Positions 4,829 to 10,019 of a stretch of DNA of 10,019 nucleotides are shown piece by piece. Each line of letters begins with the position of its first letter. Positions within the stretch are counted from its first letter, which is position 1. The notes under the pieces are model-generated. The model did not search any database. It saw only the letters and a program-made list of their open reading frames with translations, and was not told where the DNA came from. The translations under genes were made by a program, and so were the position numbers. Origin of the DNA: an uncultured bacterium. Lineage in GTDB: Bacteria > Gemmatimonadota > Gemmatimonadetes > Palauibacterales > KS3-K002. Location: NCBI GenBank assembly GCA_947581845.1, contig CANPVY010000092.1, forward strand, positions 1 to 10,019, in the 5' to 3' direction.

Positions 4829-6898
4829 CTAGTCACCGGGCCCAGCACGGCGGTGCTGTTCGAACCAACCCAGCGTCCCTTGGAGCTTGGCGATGTGATG
4901 GCTCGGGCGCCGACGGATGCCGTGCGGTTCGCCGGGTACGCGCACCAGGACCGTCTCCACTCCCAGCAGCTTCAGCGCCTTGAAGTACTGCTCGGACTCC
5001 GACATTGGCGTCCGATAGTCCTCTTCGCCAGTCATGATCATCGTCGGGGTCTTGACGTTCTCGACCACGGAGAGGAGCGAGCGGCTCTCGTAATGCTCGA
5101 CGTGGTCCCAGGGTAGGCCGGGAAACCAGTTCTTGACCGTGAAGGGCGCGATGTCGGCGGTCAGGTTGAAGCTGTACCAGTTGATGACCGGGTACCACGA
5201 GACGGCGGCGCAGAAGCGATCGGTGCGCCCGATCATCCATGCGGTCAGCACACCGCCACCGCTGCCGCCGGCGACGTAGAGGTTGTTCTCGTCGATGTAG
5301 CCCGCCTCGAGCGCCGCATCGACGGCGGAGTTCAGATCGTAGAAATCGTCGCCAGGATAAGCGTGGTGGATCAGATTGCCGAACGCTTCGCCGTAGCTCG
5401 TGCTGCCGCGCGGATTGACGTAGAGCACCACGTAGCCCTCGGCCGCCATGATCTGCTTCTCCATGTCGAACCGATCACCATAGTTGGCGAAGGGGCCGCC
5501 ATGGATCTCGATGATCAACGGATACTTGTTCGCCGGGTCGAAATCGGGCGGCTTCACGATCCAGCCCTGGATGCGACGCCCATCGAACGACGAGTTGTAC
5601 CAGATCTCTTCCACGTCACCCAGCTTCTTTCCAGCGAAGACATCGGCGTTGAGGGCAGTGATCTGCCGTACCTCCCTGGCTCTGCGGTCGGTGACCGCTA
5701 CGTCGCCGGGCACATGCGGTCGCGTGTAGGTGAATGCAATACTCCGGTTACGGGCCACGGAGAACGCATCGCCCGACCCGTAGGCACTGCCCAGGGTGCC
5801 GATGTCACCGGAGAGCACACGATGGCTGCCGTCCAACGAGAAGAAGGCGAGCTTCGTGTTCCCCTGATCGTCGTAAAGGGCGTACACCCCGCTATTGTCG
5901 GGCGCCCAGGTCGGGTTCGAGACGCTGCGGTCTAGGCTGGCTGAGACGACCCGAGCGCCGGAGCCGTCGCGGTTCATGACGTAGAGCTGGGTGAGCTGGT
6001 AGCCCACGTACCGTTCATCGAAGCCGACGTAGGCAATACGCCGGCCGTCAGGCGACACCGCCGGCGAGTTGTCGGGCCCCGGGCGATCCGTGAGCGCGCG
6101 CACGCTGCCATCCTGGACCGAGAACTCGTAGATCTCGGTGTCGCGCGTCTCGATCTCGAAGTCGTGGCGGCGGTTGGCGGAGGTGATCAGGTACTGGCCG
6201 TCCGGCGTCCACGCCGGCTGGACGCTCCCAAAACCGACGCCGCCGTGATGGAAGTCCCCGCTCGAGATCTGACGGGGCGTTCCACCCTCTGAAGGGATGA
6301 CGAACAGGTGGACATAGCCCCGTGGGATGTCACCGACGCCGTTGAACCGGTAGGTGAGCCTGTCGATGTACTGGGGCGGCTTCGCCCACTCCGCGCCTTG
6401 GGGAGGCGAAGGCATCTTGCCGATCTTCAACGGGGCCGCCGGGACCAGCTTCGTGAACGCCAGCTGTGTACCGTCAGGAGACCACGCGATGTTGCTGGGA
6501 GGCTCGGTCAGATTCGTGATCGGCGCCGACTGCCCCGTGTCCATCCAGCGAATGAAGATCTGGGGTTTGCCCTCGCGATCGGATATGAAGGCGAGCCGTT
6601 GACCGTCGGGTGACCAGCGTGGGGTATGGTCGTTGTAGTTGCCGCTCGTCAACGGCCGGTGGTCACTCCCGTCGGAGCGTATGATCCAGAGGTTGGAGTA
6701 GCGGCGGTCGGTCATGATGTCGGCGAACTGCCGCACGTAGACCACGCGCTGACCGTCGGGAGAGATCTGTGGGTCCCTCGCGTACTCCATGTTGAAGATG
6801 TCCTCGACCGATAGCCGGTCCGTTTGGCCGGCCGCAGGAGGCGCGATGGCCAGAAGGGCGCAGACGACCCAGGCCACAGCAGGGAAAGAGCGGAGCAT
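4829..6898 (-). CDS. secreted S9-family (prolyl oligopeptidase-type) peptidase
   Basis: The 689-residue product starts at ATG 6898 with GAGGTG (6906-6911) seven bases upstream. A signal peptide (residues 1-24, hydrophobic, ending PAAG before Gln25) sends it out of the cytoplasm. Residues 40-400 form a beta-propeller of TolB/PD40 repeats, each with an SPDG or TPDG turn (46-49, 96-99, 140-143, 231-234, 282-285). An alpha/beta-hydrolase domain follows: HGGP oxyanion-hole segment (466-469), NPRGSTSYG (495-503), nucleophile elbow GGSGGG with Ser546, Asp627 in TGEEDYRTP and His659 in GEPHG. All three catalytic residues are present. Such enzymes remove dipeptides or acyl-amino acids from short peptides, and the propeller excludes large proteins. 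It lies 114 bases after the HgcAB-like gene on the same strand; the gap contains a possible promoter, so it may be transcribed independently. Exact specificity (dipeptidyl or acylaminoacyl) cannot be told. Confidence 0.95.
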   Translation of the reverse strand: MLRSFPAVAWVVCALLAIAPPAAGQTDRLSVEDIFNMEYARDPQISPDGQRVVYVRQFADIMTDRRYSNLWIIRSDGSDHRPLTSGNYNDHTPRWSPDGQRLAFISDREGKPQIFIRWMDTGQSAPITNLTEPPSNIAWSPDGTQLAFTKLVPAAPLKIGKMPSPPQGAEWAKPPQYIDRLTYRFNGVGDIPRGYVHLFVIPSEGGTPRQISSGDFHHGGVGFGSVQPAWTPDGQYLITSANRRHDFEIETRDTEIYEFSVQDGSVRALTDRPGPDNSPAVSPDGRRIAYVGFDERYVGYQLTQLYVMNRDGSGARVVSASLDRSVSNPTWAPDNSGVYALYDDQGNTKLAFFSLDGSHRVLSGDIGTLGSAYGSGDAFSVARNRSIAFTYTRPHVPGDVAVTDRRAREVRQITALNADVFAGKKLGDVEEIWYNSSFDGRRIQGWIVKPPDFDPANKYPLIIEIHGGPFANYGDRFDMEKQIMAAEGYVVLYVNPRGSTSYGEAFGNLIHHAYPGDDFYDLNSAVDAALEAGYIDENNLYVAGGSGGGVLTAWMIGRTDRFCAAVSWYPVINWYSFNLTADIAPFTVKNWFPGLPWDHVEHYESRSLLSVVENVKTPTMIMTGEEDYRTPMSESEQYFKALKLLGVETVLVRVPGEPHGIRRRPSHHIAKLQGTLGWFEQHRRAGPGD

Positions 6899-6988: not shown

Positions 6989-7016
6989 TACTACGTCGGG
7001 GATTGACCGCCGTCAA
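6988..7016 (-). promoter_or_regulatory. possible promoter of the S9 peptidase gene
   Basis: On the minus strand TTGACG (7016-7011) overlaps the stop codon of the HgcAB-like gene and is followed after exactly 17 bases by TAGTAG (6993-6988). The -35 is good and the -10 is poor (three of six). The leader would be about 80 bases. It is reported because the gene gap is long enough to need it. Confidence 0.3.
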
Positions 7017-8137
7017 GTCGCTCTTGCCGAATCGACCAGGCGTCGGCCCAGCAGGTTCACCTTGAAGCGGCGCACCGTCTCGGGCGGTACGACCGCCCCT
7101 GTCGCGCTGCGAAAGTGGAGCGCGTCGCAGGGGCACTGCACAATACAGGCACCGCACTGCACACAATCTTCGGCTTTCGCTACAGTCGCTACTCGCTGCT
7201 GGTAGTCCACCTCGAAGACGTTTCTGGGGCATACCTGCTCGCAGAGGCCAACTCCCGTGCACAGCTCGCCGTCCAAGGCGATTTGAAGCAGGCGGTCCTC
7301 CTGGAACCCGCCTTTGTAGACTGGCGTGCTCCCCATGAGGTCAACCGTGAGGATCGCCACGACGATTAGCGAGATGGCTCCCCAGCGGATGGCGAGCGGC
7401 CATGAGAGAGTCCCTGCGTGGATGGTCGCGGCGAGCAGCGCGGCCATGAACAGTAGCCAGAGCAGCAGCGCGAGCGCGATCCGTCCGCCCGTTGTGCGGA
7501 GCCGCTCGTGATAGAGAGGAAAGGATAGGAAGATGAGGGCGGACAACGCCCACACGAGACCGACGACCGGAAGTGCGCCCTGCGGCCAGAACAAGAGGAG
7601 CAACAGCGCGAGCAATGAGATCGGGGATGCCCAGGCAACGGCCATCTCCAGCCGCTGTGGCCACGGGAAATCGATCGTTCGCATGCTTGCGGCCGCCTGC
7701 GAGCCGGCTTTCAGGAAGGCGGGTATCGCGCTGGCACGGACCGGTCCCCAGACAACCGTCCAGCCCGTCTTCCGGTGAACGACCGCGCCTTCGATGCCGG
7801 TGGCGGCAAGCTGAGGCAGGATCAGCTGTCGGTGATCGACCAGATCCTCGATGCCGCTTGTCTTCAGAACTGCGATGACATCGTGATTCGTCAACAGGCC
7901 ACCGGTGGCAGCACACCAGACATTGATGCCGCGGCTGTTGGCGACCAGCAGATACGCGTCGATCCCTTGGATGGCGCGTCTCACTCTTGCGACCGTGAGG
8001 CGGAAGTTGCAGGTGAGCAGGACCGGCGAGTCACGTCCGGGAGCCCCGATCTTGACCAGGCCTGTCCGGCACGGGAATGGGAGCACCCTGAGAAGCGTCT
8101 GCAGAATATTGGTCCAGGCGTAGTGGAGGTAGCTCAC
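7013..8137 (-). CDS. HgcAB-like fusion: corrinoid domain, membrane helices and two-cluster ferredoxin domain
   Basis: This 374-residue protein starts at GTG 8137. Residues about 25-150 match the corrinoid-binding domain of HgcA, with SPVLLTCNFRLTV (37-49), then GINVWCAATGG (70-80). In HgcA the cap-helix motif NVWCA(A/G)GK supplies a Cys ligand to cobalt; Cys75 is its counterpart, while the GK end is TGG here. LVDHRQLILPQLAATG (99-114) and WGPVRASAIPAFLKAG (130-145) also match HgcA. Four membrane helices follow (about 167-184, 188-208, 219-240, 248-267). Residues 285-340 resemble HgcB: C293-x5-C299-x3-C303P and C325-x2-C328-x2-C331-x3-C335P. HgcA and HgcB are normally separate proteins that together methylate Hg(II). 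Here the first motif has Val296 in place of its second Cys. The gene overlaps cpaM by 4 bp (GTGA), implying coupled translation. I infer a membrane corrinoid methyl carrier reduced by its own ferredoxin domain; mercury methylation is not demonstrated. Confidence 0.88.
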   Translation of the reverse strand: MSYLHYAWTNILQTLLRVLPFPCRTGLVKIGAPGRDSPVLLTCNFRLTVARVRRAIQGIDAYLLVANSRGINVWCAATGGLLTNHDVIAVLKTSGIEDLVDHRQLILPQLAATGIEGAVVHRKTGWTVVWGPVRASAIPAFLKAGSQAAASMRTIDFPWPQRLEMAVAWASPISLLALLLLLFWPQGALPVVGLVWALSALIFLSFPLYHERLRTTGGRIALALLLWLLFMAALLAATIHAGTLSWPLAIRWGAISLIVVAILTVDLMGSTPVYKGGFQEDRLLQIALDGELCTGVGLCEQVCPRNVFEVDYQQRVATVAKAEDCVQCGACIVQCPCDALHFRSATGAVVPPETVRRFKVNLLGRRLVDSARAT

Positions 8138-8802
8138 GCTGTTGCTTTATCCGGCTTCTTGGCCATCAGCTCGATGAAGCTGCCGAGCCTGCTGGTGTCG
8201 GCTGACATGATACTCAGGCCCGCTTGCGTCAGTTTGTCGTGCAGGCCCGCGATAGGGCGTGTCGTCCGCTGACTGATGACGTACGTGAGAATCGCGAGGG
8301 GGATCCGGACCAGCGAATGCAACATTCGAGTGACAAGGCTTTGAGGCCTGACCTCGTCGGCGACGAGCAGGAGCCCTCCGGGCCGCAGAATTCGCGTAAC
8401 CTGCTTCAGGGTGTAGGCGAGCTCGTCGTCACCTAGCTCGGACAGGCAGAGGCCGCTCATGACAACGTCGTAGCTTTCCGACCGCTCCGCGTCCAGCTCG
8501 GCGACGCTCATCTCCACCAGCTCGATTCTGTCTGAAAGGCCTGTGTCTCGCCCATGCCGGGCGGCGATCTCGAGCATCTGGGGGTTCACGTCGATCGCCC
8601 TTACGCTGGCTCCACGGCGAGCTGCCCGCAGGGCTAGCGGGCCGGTACCGCAACCGATGTCGAGCACCCGCTGCCCAGGGTCTATGTAGCTTGCCAGGCG
8701 ATCGTAAGCTCTCTGCACACGTCCGAGCGTGAGCAGACGGATGCCCAAGTCGTATCGCTGTGGAGCGGATTCGAGGATCCGCATCAGCACGAAAGTGCTC
8801 AT
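8134..8802 (-). CDS. cpaM: corrinoid protein-associated class I SAM methyltransferase (CpaM-like)
   Basis: The product is 222 residues from ATG 8802; the ribosome site is weak (GGTGG nine bases before). It has a Rossmann-type SAM-binding fold: VLDIGCGTG (46-54, motif I), acidic Asp71 in RAIDVNPQML that should bind the ribose hydroxyls, VEMSVAEL (96-103), YDVVMSGLCLSEL (111-123) and the motif VTRILRPGGLLLVADE (135-150). The N-terminal MSTFVLMRILESAPQRYDLGIRLLTLGR is the helical lead-in I associate with CpaM, the methyltransferase found next to HgcAB-like fusions. Its last four bases (TGA in GTGA) are shared with the start of the fusion gene, so the two proteins are probably made together and act on a common substrate. 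It could pass a methyl group from SAM to the corrinoid protein or modify its cofactor or product; the direction is not known. A palindrome upstream is a possible operator. Confidence 0.85.
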   Translation of the reverse strand: MSTFVLMRILESAPQRYDLGIRLLTLGRVQRAYDRLASYIDPGQRVLDIGCGTGPLALRAARRGASVRAIDVNPQMLEIAARHGRDTGLSDRIELVEMSVAELDAERSESYDVVMSGLCLSELGDDELAYTLKQVTRILRPGGLLLVADEVRPQSLVTRMLHSLVRIPLAILTYVISQRTTRPIAGLHDKLTQAGLSIMSADTSRLGSFIELMAKKPDKATA

Positions 8803-8955: not shown

Positions 8956-10019
8956 TCAGCTCGTTTCTTGCGGCAGGCAGACGCGGATATCCGCACCGTC
9001 AGCAGCGGGCAGGATGACGGCGCCGCGCTCCGCGGGCGTCAGAATGTCGAAGGCGACAGGTGGCCCGGCGTCGAACTCTAACTCGTGCACGGGCAGCCGT
9101 GACAGGTTGGTGACCAAGATACCGCTGTGCGGGTGGATCACGTGGCAGTGCTCGAGGACGGATAGTCCCTCCTGCCTGCGCAGGCGCTCGACAACACTCA
9201 GCGACTTCCTCACGTAGTCTGCATCGACTTGAGCGACCGTGCTGCGGATCTTCTGGGCCAGCACGCCGAGCGGTGCATCGCTCAGGTACTCGCGGTCGAC
9301 GGACACGATGGCCAGGCTGACAGCGCAGCCGAAGTAGGTCGGTGGGAACCCGTCGAGCAGCCTGCGGAAATCCACCGGGCAGCTGGCAAGGGCAGTGCTA
9401 TCCGTCGTTCCGGCACTCCAGGCGGGCACGTATCGCTTCCAGAGCCAGGCGGTGATCGCGTCGTTGTGGGAGAGCCTGACATCGCAATCCCGCTGTGCCT
9501 GGCTGAGTATCTCGTTCATCTCTTCGCGCGAGAACTGGTAGCGGTGCCAGCGTAGCCGTTCTCGGGCGATCGCGCTCCGCCGCTCGCCCCAGTGGACGCC
9601 GCACTCAGCGAGCACGTCTTCGGACGTGAGTCGCTTGGCGGGTTCGGTGCTTGCGGGGATCAGCAGTTCGCGCCGGTGCGAGGGTGGGTGGATCGGTAAC
9701 CCGTGAAAGAGGCGTGCCCAGCTGGACAGGAAATGGAAGTAGCTGAATCCGTCGGCGACGGCGTGTGACATGCTCACACCGACCACGGATCCCTGCGGCG
9801 TCTGGGAGAGCTTGATTCGGGTTAGCGGTTCGCCCTGGACACTGTGGACGGGATTCAGGAATCCGTAGCGTGCCCCAGCTTCGCTGAAAGTCACCGTCGA
9901 GCTCGCCACCTCGAAGTGCAACCCGTCGTCGGACGGTTCGAGGCCGTAGGCATCCTCAGCGAGTCTGACCAGTTTGCTTGCTACCGGCGCGAAGTGCTCG
10001 AGCGCCTCCTCAAGGCTGC
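8956..10019 (-). CDS. BAHD-type (HxxxD) acyltransferase, 5' end outside window
   Basis: The frame is open to the right edge, giving 353 visible residues; the true start is beyond the window (the family is about 420-480 residues). The first visible residues, SLEEALEHFAPVASKLVRLAED, match the early BAHD helix that in plant enzymes reads like LxxSLxxxLxxYYPLAGRL. SHAVADG holds the catalytic HxxxD (visible His85, Asp89), where His acts as general base for acyl transfer from an acyl-CoA to a hydroxyl or amine. Other hallmarks: SHNDAITAWLWK (183-194), PVDFRRLLDGFPPTYFGCAVS (214-234) and ILVTNLSRLPVHELEFDAG (300-318), where the structural DFGWG motif of plant BAHD enzymes is replaced by EFDAG. The closing ILPAADGADIRVCL also fits. 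It should be a soluble monomeric acyltransferase. Donor and acceptor are unknown. Its gene is followed by a hairpin, so it is not clearly in the cpaM operon. Confidence 0.85.
   Translation of the reverse strand, partial: SLEEALEHFAPVASKLVRLAEDAYGLEPSDDGLHFEVASSTVTFSEAGARYGFLNPVHSVQGEPLTRIKLSQTPQGSVVGVSMSHAVADGFSYFHFLSSWARLFHGLPIHPPSHRRELLIPASTEPAKRLTSEDVLAECGVHWGERRSAIARERLRWHRYQFSREEMNEILSQAQRDCDVRLSHNDAITAWLWKRYVPAWSAGTTDSTALASCPVDFRRLLDGFPPTYFGCAVSLAIVSVDREYLSDAPLGVLAQKIRSTVAQVDADYVRKSLSVVERLRRQEGLSVLEHCHVIHPHSGILVTNLSRLPVHELEFDAGPPVAFDILTPAERGAVILPAADGADIRVCLPQETS

Follow-up and report, generated by a model that had tools for sequence, protein, structure and literature searches.

An HgcAB-like fusion protein and its partner gene

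The window, by which we mean the whole 10,019-nucleotide stretch that was analyzed, carries on its minus strand a frame of 374 aa (7013..8137; GTG start at 8137, stop at 7013). In an NCBIfam profile scan its product matched NF043039, "HgcAB-like fusion protein," at 434.4 bits against a cut-off of 285 (E-value 4e-130). The match was near full-length (window residues 9-340, profile positions 2-349 of 350) with the same domain order, and by sequence the protein adds one member to a family with an existing NCBI name. Upstream on the same strand, and overlapping the start of the HgcAB-like gene by 4 bp, is a gene for CpaM (8134..8802), a class I SAM-dependent methyltransferase of 222 aa. CpaM matched the whole of NF043040 (288.7 bits, cut-off 180, profile positions 1-216 of 216), with no difference from this family found, and also PF13649 (75.9 bits, Pfam). 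It has the SAM motif DIGCGTG, and Gly 50, 52, and 54 are invariant in 29 aligned CpaM sequences. A sequence-only reading of this DNA, made earlier, had mentioned neither the overlapping CpaM gene nor the lost cluster ligand described below.

The N-terminal part of the HgcAB-like protein is a corrinoid-binding domain with a fold of the CFeSP/HgcA type (residues 20-146; 7700..8080, minus strand). The sequence-only reading had described an HgcA-like corrinoid domain with an NVWCA cap, and expected both a profile match within residues 25-150 and a corrinoid-binding fold in the predicted structure. All of these were found: PF03599 matched residues 21-141 at 62.9 bits and the HgcA profile NF040863 matched residues 23-243, the latter at 164.7 bits and so below its cut-off of 275. 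The profiles for HgcB (NF040864; 49.7 bits, cut-off 99) and for the corrinoid subunit of the acetyl-CoA pathway (NF003195; 94.4 bits, cut-off 306) also scored under their thresholds. The cap-helix motif, NVWCAATGG (residues 72-80; 7898..7924), retains the Cys but ends in TGG, as had been noted earlier, in place of the GK of the HgcA motif, which is given as NVWCA(A/G/S)GK in the accessible text of PMC7536318 and reads NVWCAAGK in the canonical HgcA loci studied here. C75 was invariant in all 46 aligned sequences and is the presumed lower cobalt ligand, which is consistent with the Cys-ligated corrinoid, or Cys-on architecture, that had been proposed.

Four transmembrane helices follow (residues 159-265; 7343..7663), one fewer than the five of HgcA. 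Their number, which agrees with the earlier reading, was the same by hydropathy and in the AF2 model (pLDDT 88.0, pTM 0.85), where they span residues 159-182, 185-204, 218-241, and 246-265. The C-terminal part is an HgcB-like dicluster ferredoxin domain (residues 283-343; 7109..7291), identified by Fer4 Pfam matches and by the HgcB profile score given above.

Linkage and fusion of CpaM to the corrinoid protein

To place the window we used a scan of a genome collection, from which the best 80 loci listed, plus the window, make a sample of 81 that is biased to close relatives. By their cap motifs these comprise 19 canonical GK loci and 62 non-GK loci. HgcA and ferredoxin lie in one frame in 51 of the 62 non-GK loci among the matches listed (32 of the 33 in the window's clade, 17 other fused loci, and two triple fusions), and the idea that a sequencing error or assembly join had merged two genes was rejected. 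In L024 (9950-10729), a frame of the window's clade ends before the ferredoxin domain, and a search of the following 770 bp found no ferredoxin.

Among the matches listed, CpaM was adjacent or fused in 58 of the 62 non-GK loci vs. none of the 19 canonical HgcA loci. The 58 include L007 and L015, in which only a piece of CpaM is present, at the contig end. Loci L016, L023, and L076 begin inside the gene at contig ends, and their genomes hold an over-cut-off CpaM on another contig; in those of L016 and L076 an HgcAB-like gene begins after it at the contig end, while in that of L023 CpaM is close to a contig end and no fragment of HgcAB was seen. The real exception is L036, a distant fused member with no CpaM in its locus and a best genome match of 61.6 bits. 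We left out of the count a generic methyltransferase (44.8 bits) about 3.5 kb away in L079.

Searches of whole genomes gave a similar picture. CpaM exceeded its cut-off in one of 18 canonical genomes (L075 was left out), that of L071, where it directly precedes a fused HgcAB-like gene (L137) on a contig other than that of the canonical hgcA; the fused protein matches the window's at 51%. In 201 Chloroflexota genomes, not selected for HgcA, there were three CpaM matches over the cut-off, one of them from the search-centre genome, and each of the three either adjoined or shared a frame with a match to NF043039; one of these NF043039 matches (266.5 bits) is below its cut-off. L144, from the Chloroflexota set, has a canonical HgcA and no CpaM in the stretch fetched. 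A shortened CpaM in L143 (6016-6560; 178.6 bits) has a ferredoxin piece no more than 24 bp after it but no HgcA, and appears to be a remnant or an assembly gap of a CpaM-HgcAB-like operon.

CpaM and HgcA form a single ORF in 12 of the 62 non-GK loci among the matches listed, and in L052 and L055 CpaM, HgcA, and HgcB are joined in one chain that exceeds the cut-offs of both NF043039 and NF043040. When mapped on the tree of HgcA, the label "CpaM fused" requires two changes. The distances between HgcA sequences and between CpaM sequences at 57 loci were correlated (r 0.77, with 0 of 2000 permutations as strong), a value to which shared organism history contributes. A model of the L052 triple fusion (pLDDT 87.0, pTM 0.85), for which natural fusions supplied 12 of the 58 rows, predicted the class I methyltransferase fold; this prediction is for L052 rather than for the window's own CpaM. 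The overlap and fusion of CpaM are the best clue to the source of the methyl group. As a feature of the NF043039 family, the CpaM partner comes from the present comparison and, as far as we could see, is absent from the NCBI definition.

In the literature searched we found no paper on CpaM together with HgcA, and no measured activity for CpaM or an HgcAB-like fusion. Likewise not found in that literature, which was without one likely source (Haft and Gwadz, 2023), were the linkage of CpaM, the chains that join CpaM, HgcA, and HgcB, the lost cluster ligand, and the L061 form described below. The NCBI name "corrinoid protein-associated methyltransferase" indicates, however, that annotators had already seen the association of CpaM with corrinoid proteins.

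Cysteines missing from the ferredoxin domain

The two-motif ferredoxin of the sequence-only reading was borne out as to the domain (at about residues 283-343) and the second motif, CVQCGACIVQC (C325-xx-C-xx-C-xxx-C335; 7133..7165), which is complete and has invariant Cys columns at 325, 328, 331, and 335. The first motif (7226..7261) is deficient: it reads C293-x5-C299-x3-C303-P, with Val at the position of the second Cys, and thus departs from the two complete CxxCxxCxxxCP motifs of HgcB. This Cys is absent from every one of the 32 members of the window's clade that could be assessed (among the matches listed plus the window), whereas among the matches listed it is kept in 17/17 other fused loci, 2/2 triple fusions, and 19/19 canonical HgcB proteins. 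Seven of eight assessable Chloroflexota ferredoxins beside CpaM-HgcA, again among the matches listed, also lack it. In the HgcB model, as set out in the accessible part of PMC7305189, the second Cys of motif 1 belongs to cluster A, and cluster B lies 14.9 Å from the cobalt. A first motif without one Cys may hold a cluster of higher potential, which would be less suited to making Co(I).

According to the same part of PMC7305189, Cys73 is indispensable, and full mercury methylation also requires one or more C-terminal Cys residues. The window protein has instead the tail RRFKVNLLGRR (7040..7072) in place of the Cys73 and CC tail of HgcB; its one extra Cys, C337, lies two residues past the second motif and not at the Cys73 place. 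Comparison of the tails in its clade (matches listed plus the window) showed that they resemble RRFKxNLLGxR, with a Cys at the Cys73 place in none of 32 and any later tail Cys in two of 32, L011 and L013. In the 19 canonical HgcB proteins among the matches listed, this place is always a Cys or, in three cases, an in-frame TGA. The three HgcB genes concerned (L051, L062, and L079) have a CC tail after the TGA, which probably encodes selenocysteine. For CpaM-HgcA fusions with a separate ferredoxin, the Cys73 place was read by eye.

Five fused HgcAB-like proteins (L035, L036, L038, L041, and L049) have a Cys at the Cys73 place and more Cys residues in the tail, with CpaM upstream in four of the five. 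Handling of soft metals is a possible role for these Cys-tailed fusions.

Phylogeny and the L061 form

A tree that included canonical HgcA, as the earlier reading had recommended, was rooted on four CFeSP subunits. The 19 canonical HgcA rows formed one clade (100/100, among the matches listed) and the 61 CpaM-linked rows a second (99/96, among the matches listed plus the window), and the window was outside the HgcA clade. The proposal of a distinct family is upheld in that these clades are separate, but the family is not new, having been named as NF043039. The window belongs to a clade of 33 rows (98/85) from Asgard archaea and many bacterial phyla among the matches listed. In a tree of CpaM itself, the rows from the window's clade were not one group; the outgroup branches were too long, and that tree is consequently unfit for rooting.

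In the best tree, L061, from a member of the Poribacteria, was outside both clades (92/76), although an alternative tree that places it inside the CpaM-linked rows was not rejected (p-AU 0.487). Positions 8815-11493 of L061 encode an ArsR/SmtB regulator (66.4, cut-off 55), a CpaM-HgcA fusion with the cap NVWCAAGEGNF, and a separate HgcB-like ferredoxin. The CpaM part of the fusion scored 229.6 against its cut-off of 180, while the HgcA part scored 231.1 on the HgcA profile (cut-off 275) and 237.1 on the HgcAB-like profile (cut-off 285). The ferredoxin, 380 bp on from the fusion (77.7, below the cut-off of 99), has a Cys at the Cys73 place and no later Cys. Elsewhere in this genome is a canonical hgcAB pair (L145), and the 4 kb retrieved for it contains no CpaM. 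ArsR regulators are known upstream of hgcAB in bacterial methylators, as reported in the accessible text of PMC10349881. Judging from these sequences, L061 could connect canonical HgcA with the CpaM-linked family.

Neighborhood and host

No third conserved operon gene emerged when the 1138 neighbor genes of the 81 loci were clustered, as no further cluster was common to most, and no conserved neighbor points to an acceptor for the methyl group. Immediately upstream of CpaM, 11 loci among the matches listed (L018, L020, L025, L026, L028, L029, L030, L031, L045, L065, and L078), which fall into two groups, have a TetR-type regulator (Pfam was run on five of the 11); the position of this regulator hints at an organic ligand. 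Among 20 chosen neighbors, Pfam identified only one regulator of a metal type, the ArsR of L061. A link to oxygen was considered and rejected, as COX1 was over its cut-off in 19 of 33 genomes of the window's clade vs. seven of 16 canonical genomes among the matches listed, which gives no separation.

Several individual neighbors are worth recording. In L024, a phospholipid-methyltransferase-like gene (PF04191) overlaps CpaM. An O6-methylguanine-DNA methyltransferase gene is located just downstream of the HgcAB-like gene in L002 (3262-3756), and the corresponding downstream position in its close relative L003 holds a gene of the same length. In L074 (4103-6606), genes of the pyruvate:ferredoxin oxidoreductase type neighbor CpaM (Pfam), which is of interest for the mechanism.

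Seven other proteins of the window were searched with Pfam, two being without a match, and none was a mercury or acetyl-CoA pathway protein, in line with the earlier reading. Upstream of CpaM on the minus strand, and open at the window end, is a gene for a PF02458 transferase (8956-10017; 101 bits), a BAHD-like acyltransferase. This family is found mainly in plants and fungi. Downstream lies an S9 peptidase gene (4829-6898) from a large paralog family of the host order, with 35 matches in its own genome. The host genome also has four matches to the B12-binding domain (PF02310) over the cut-off. It has no rplB match of its own; in an rplB tree, the window's relatives stood apart from the phyla named there. 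The abundance of S9 peptidases would point to Gemmatimonadota.

The CpaM/HgcAB-like pair was probably gained horizontally. A decaying or mis-binned fragment without function is very improbable: the host assembly, in 400 contigs, has a completeness of 65%, no other genome among the 298 of the phylum exceeds the NF043039 cut-off, and the S9 peptidase is 49% identical to its best match in the only same-genus genome searched, but both frames are intact with their key residues kept, the patchy spread suggests horizontal gain, and the contig fits the host order because the same peptidase is 65-67% identical to its matches in six same-order genomes.

Comparison with known systems

Relative to canonical HgcA and HgcB, the window protein is a single chain with GK replaced, without the fifth membrane helix and with a CpaM partner; relative to HgcB in particular, it lacks Cys73, the C-terminal Cys, and the second Cys of motif 1. 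The last of these also sets its clade apart from the fused loci outside it. The large subunit of CFeSP (AcsC, CdhE) has no membrane domain and, according to the accessible part of PMC7305189, no cap Cys. Judged by description, the fused HgcAB proteins of Pyrococcus, Methanococcoides, and Kosmotoga probably belong with NF043039. In the portions of the mercury literature available to us, fused HgcAB proteins are treated as paralogs and used to root trees.

A proposed mechanism and its alternatives

Based on the observed anatomy, the linkage and fusion of the modules, and the missing cysteines, we lean toward a reading in which the two genes form one membrane methyltransferase of three modules that would carry a methyl group from SAM, via cobalt, to an acceptor that is probably not mercury. 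The ferredoxin domain would pass electrons to the corrinoid and bring the cobalt to Co(I), and CpaM would bind SAM and donate a methyl cation to Co(I). The cap-helix thiolate of C75 would ligate the resulting methyl-Co(III) from below, a ligation by which the methyl group could leave as a carbanion or radical and pass, as we infer for this direction of transfer, to an electrophilic acceptor. The likeliest acceptor would be a small electrophile that is reached from the membrane and, in some hosts, sensed by a TetR repressor. It is probably not Hg(II), since the clade is missing the HgcB cysteines to which the carriage of Hg(II) and methylmercury is ascribed.

In purified canonical HgcAB, the methyl group comes from SAM via methylcob(III)alamin with thiolate ligation, a 2024 finding that the accessible text of PMC11588087 terms unexpected. 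As SAM methylates the purified canonical proteins without CpaM, CpaM is not chemically required. A methylenetetrahydrofolate reductase gene just upstream of CpaM in L044 (8268-9155; Pfam) would fit a folate methyl source and counts against the SAM mechanism.

An unlikely alternative is that CpaM, which resembles the UbiE/Coq5 quinone methylases, leaves the corrinoid alone and methylates either the product or a different group on that substrate, while the HgcAB-like part conducts a separate methyl transfer. After NF043040, the next NCBIfam matches of the window's CpaM are quinone methylases and ArsM-type enzymes, all far below their cut-offs. The best PDB matches of the L052 model are Coq5 and other class I SAM methyltransferases, and its fold matches also include phosphatidylethanolamine N-methyltransferase. 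The 12 loci (among the matches listed) in which CpaM is fused to the N-terminal side of the corrinoid domain argue against such a division of labor; given that HgcAB is known to use SAM, they point to cobalt as the simplest target.

We consider it somewhat less likely still that the protein is a mercury methylator in which CpaM replaces the canonical loading from SAM and Hg(II) arrives via free thiols rather than the HgcB cysteines. The cap Cys and corrinoid site are kept, the sub-clade of Cys-tailed fusions has cysteines at the Cys73 place and beyond, and L061 unites an ArsR regulator with a CpaM-HgcA fusion and an HgcB-like ferredoxin whose Cys73 place is occupied by a Cys. However, the window's clade, with 0/32 at the Cys73 place and 2/32 with a later tail Cys among the matches listed plus the window, lacks these residues almost entirely, and the HgcA and HgcB cut-offs were missed. 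In addition, two cultured carriers of fused HgcAB, Pyrococcus furiosus and Methanococcoides methylutens, which may belong to another sub-clade, formed no methylmercury according to the accessible text of PMC5893877. The absent mercury-handling cysteines and these two negative cultures agree with the earlier view that the window protein is probably not a mercury methylator.

It is quite improbable that the system runs in reverse as a demethylase, taking methyl groups from a methylated compound onto Co(I), with CpaM passing on or clearing them. Corrinoid proteins take methyl groups from many donors, and TetR control in some loci would fit detoxification, but methyl transfer from cobalt to SAH is unfavorable. 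Moreover, the sole studied relative, HgcAB, runs from SAM to cobalt (PMC11588087, in its accessible text).

Implications for the origin and detection of mercury methylation

This family bears on the original role of HgcA and on the reasons for microbial mercury methylation. The missing mercury-handling cysteines and the partner CpaM suggest an unknown methylation reaction related to mercury methylation. That the non-GK relatives have a SAM methyltransferase of their own, up to the point of three-module fusion, independently fits the biochemistry of SAM as donor.

We tentatively raise, as a scenario that may well not hold, that the pairing of CpaM and the HgcAB-like protein came first, as a membrane-bound, SAM-fed corrinoid enzyme that converts the methyl cation of SAM into a carbanion- or radical-like methyl group and hands it to a native acceptor. 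Mercury methylation would then have arisen in one branch through the loss of CpaM, the acquisition of the GK cap, and the retention or gain of mercury-binding cysteines, with L061 as a surviving intermediate.

The concern that such proteins could be mistaken for methylation markers in surveys is a fair one, though the NCBI HgcA model does reject the window protein (164.7 bits vs. 275). The GK cap, Cys73, the tail Cys, and the presence of CpaM provide simple rules by which such genes can be excluded from mercury-methylation surveys, while L061 and the Cys-tailed fusions should be watched as possible unrecognized methylators. The CpaM/HgcAB-like pair is a concrete system in which to find the native acceptor, and the CpaM linkage, together with L061, makes the native role of this family testable.
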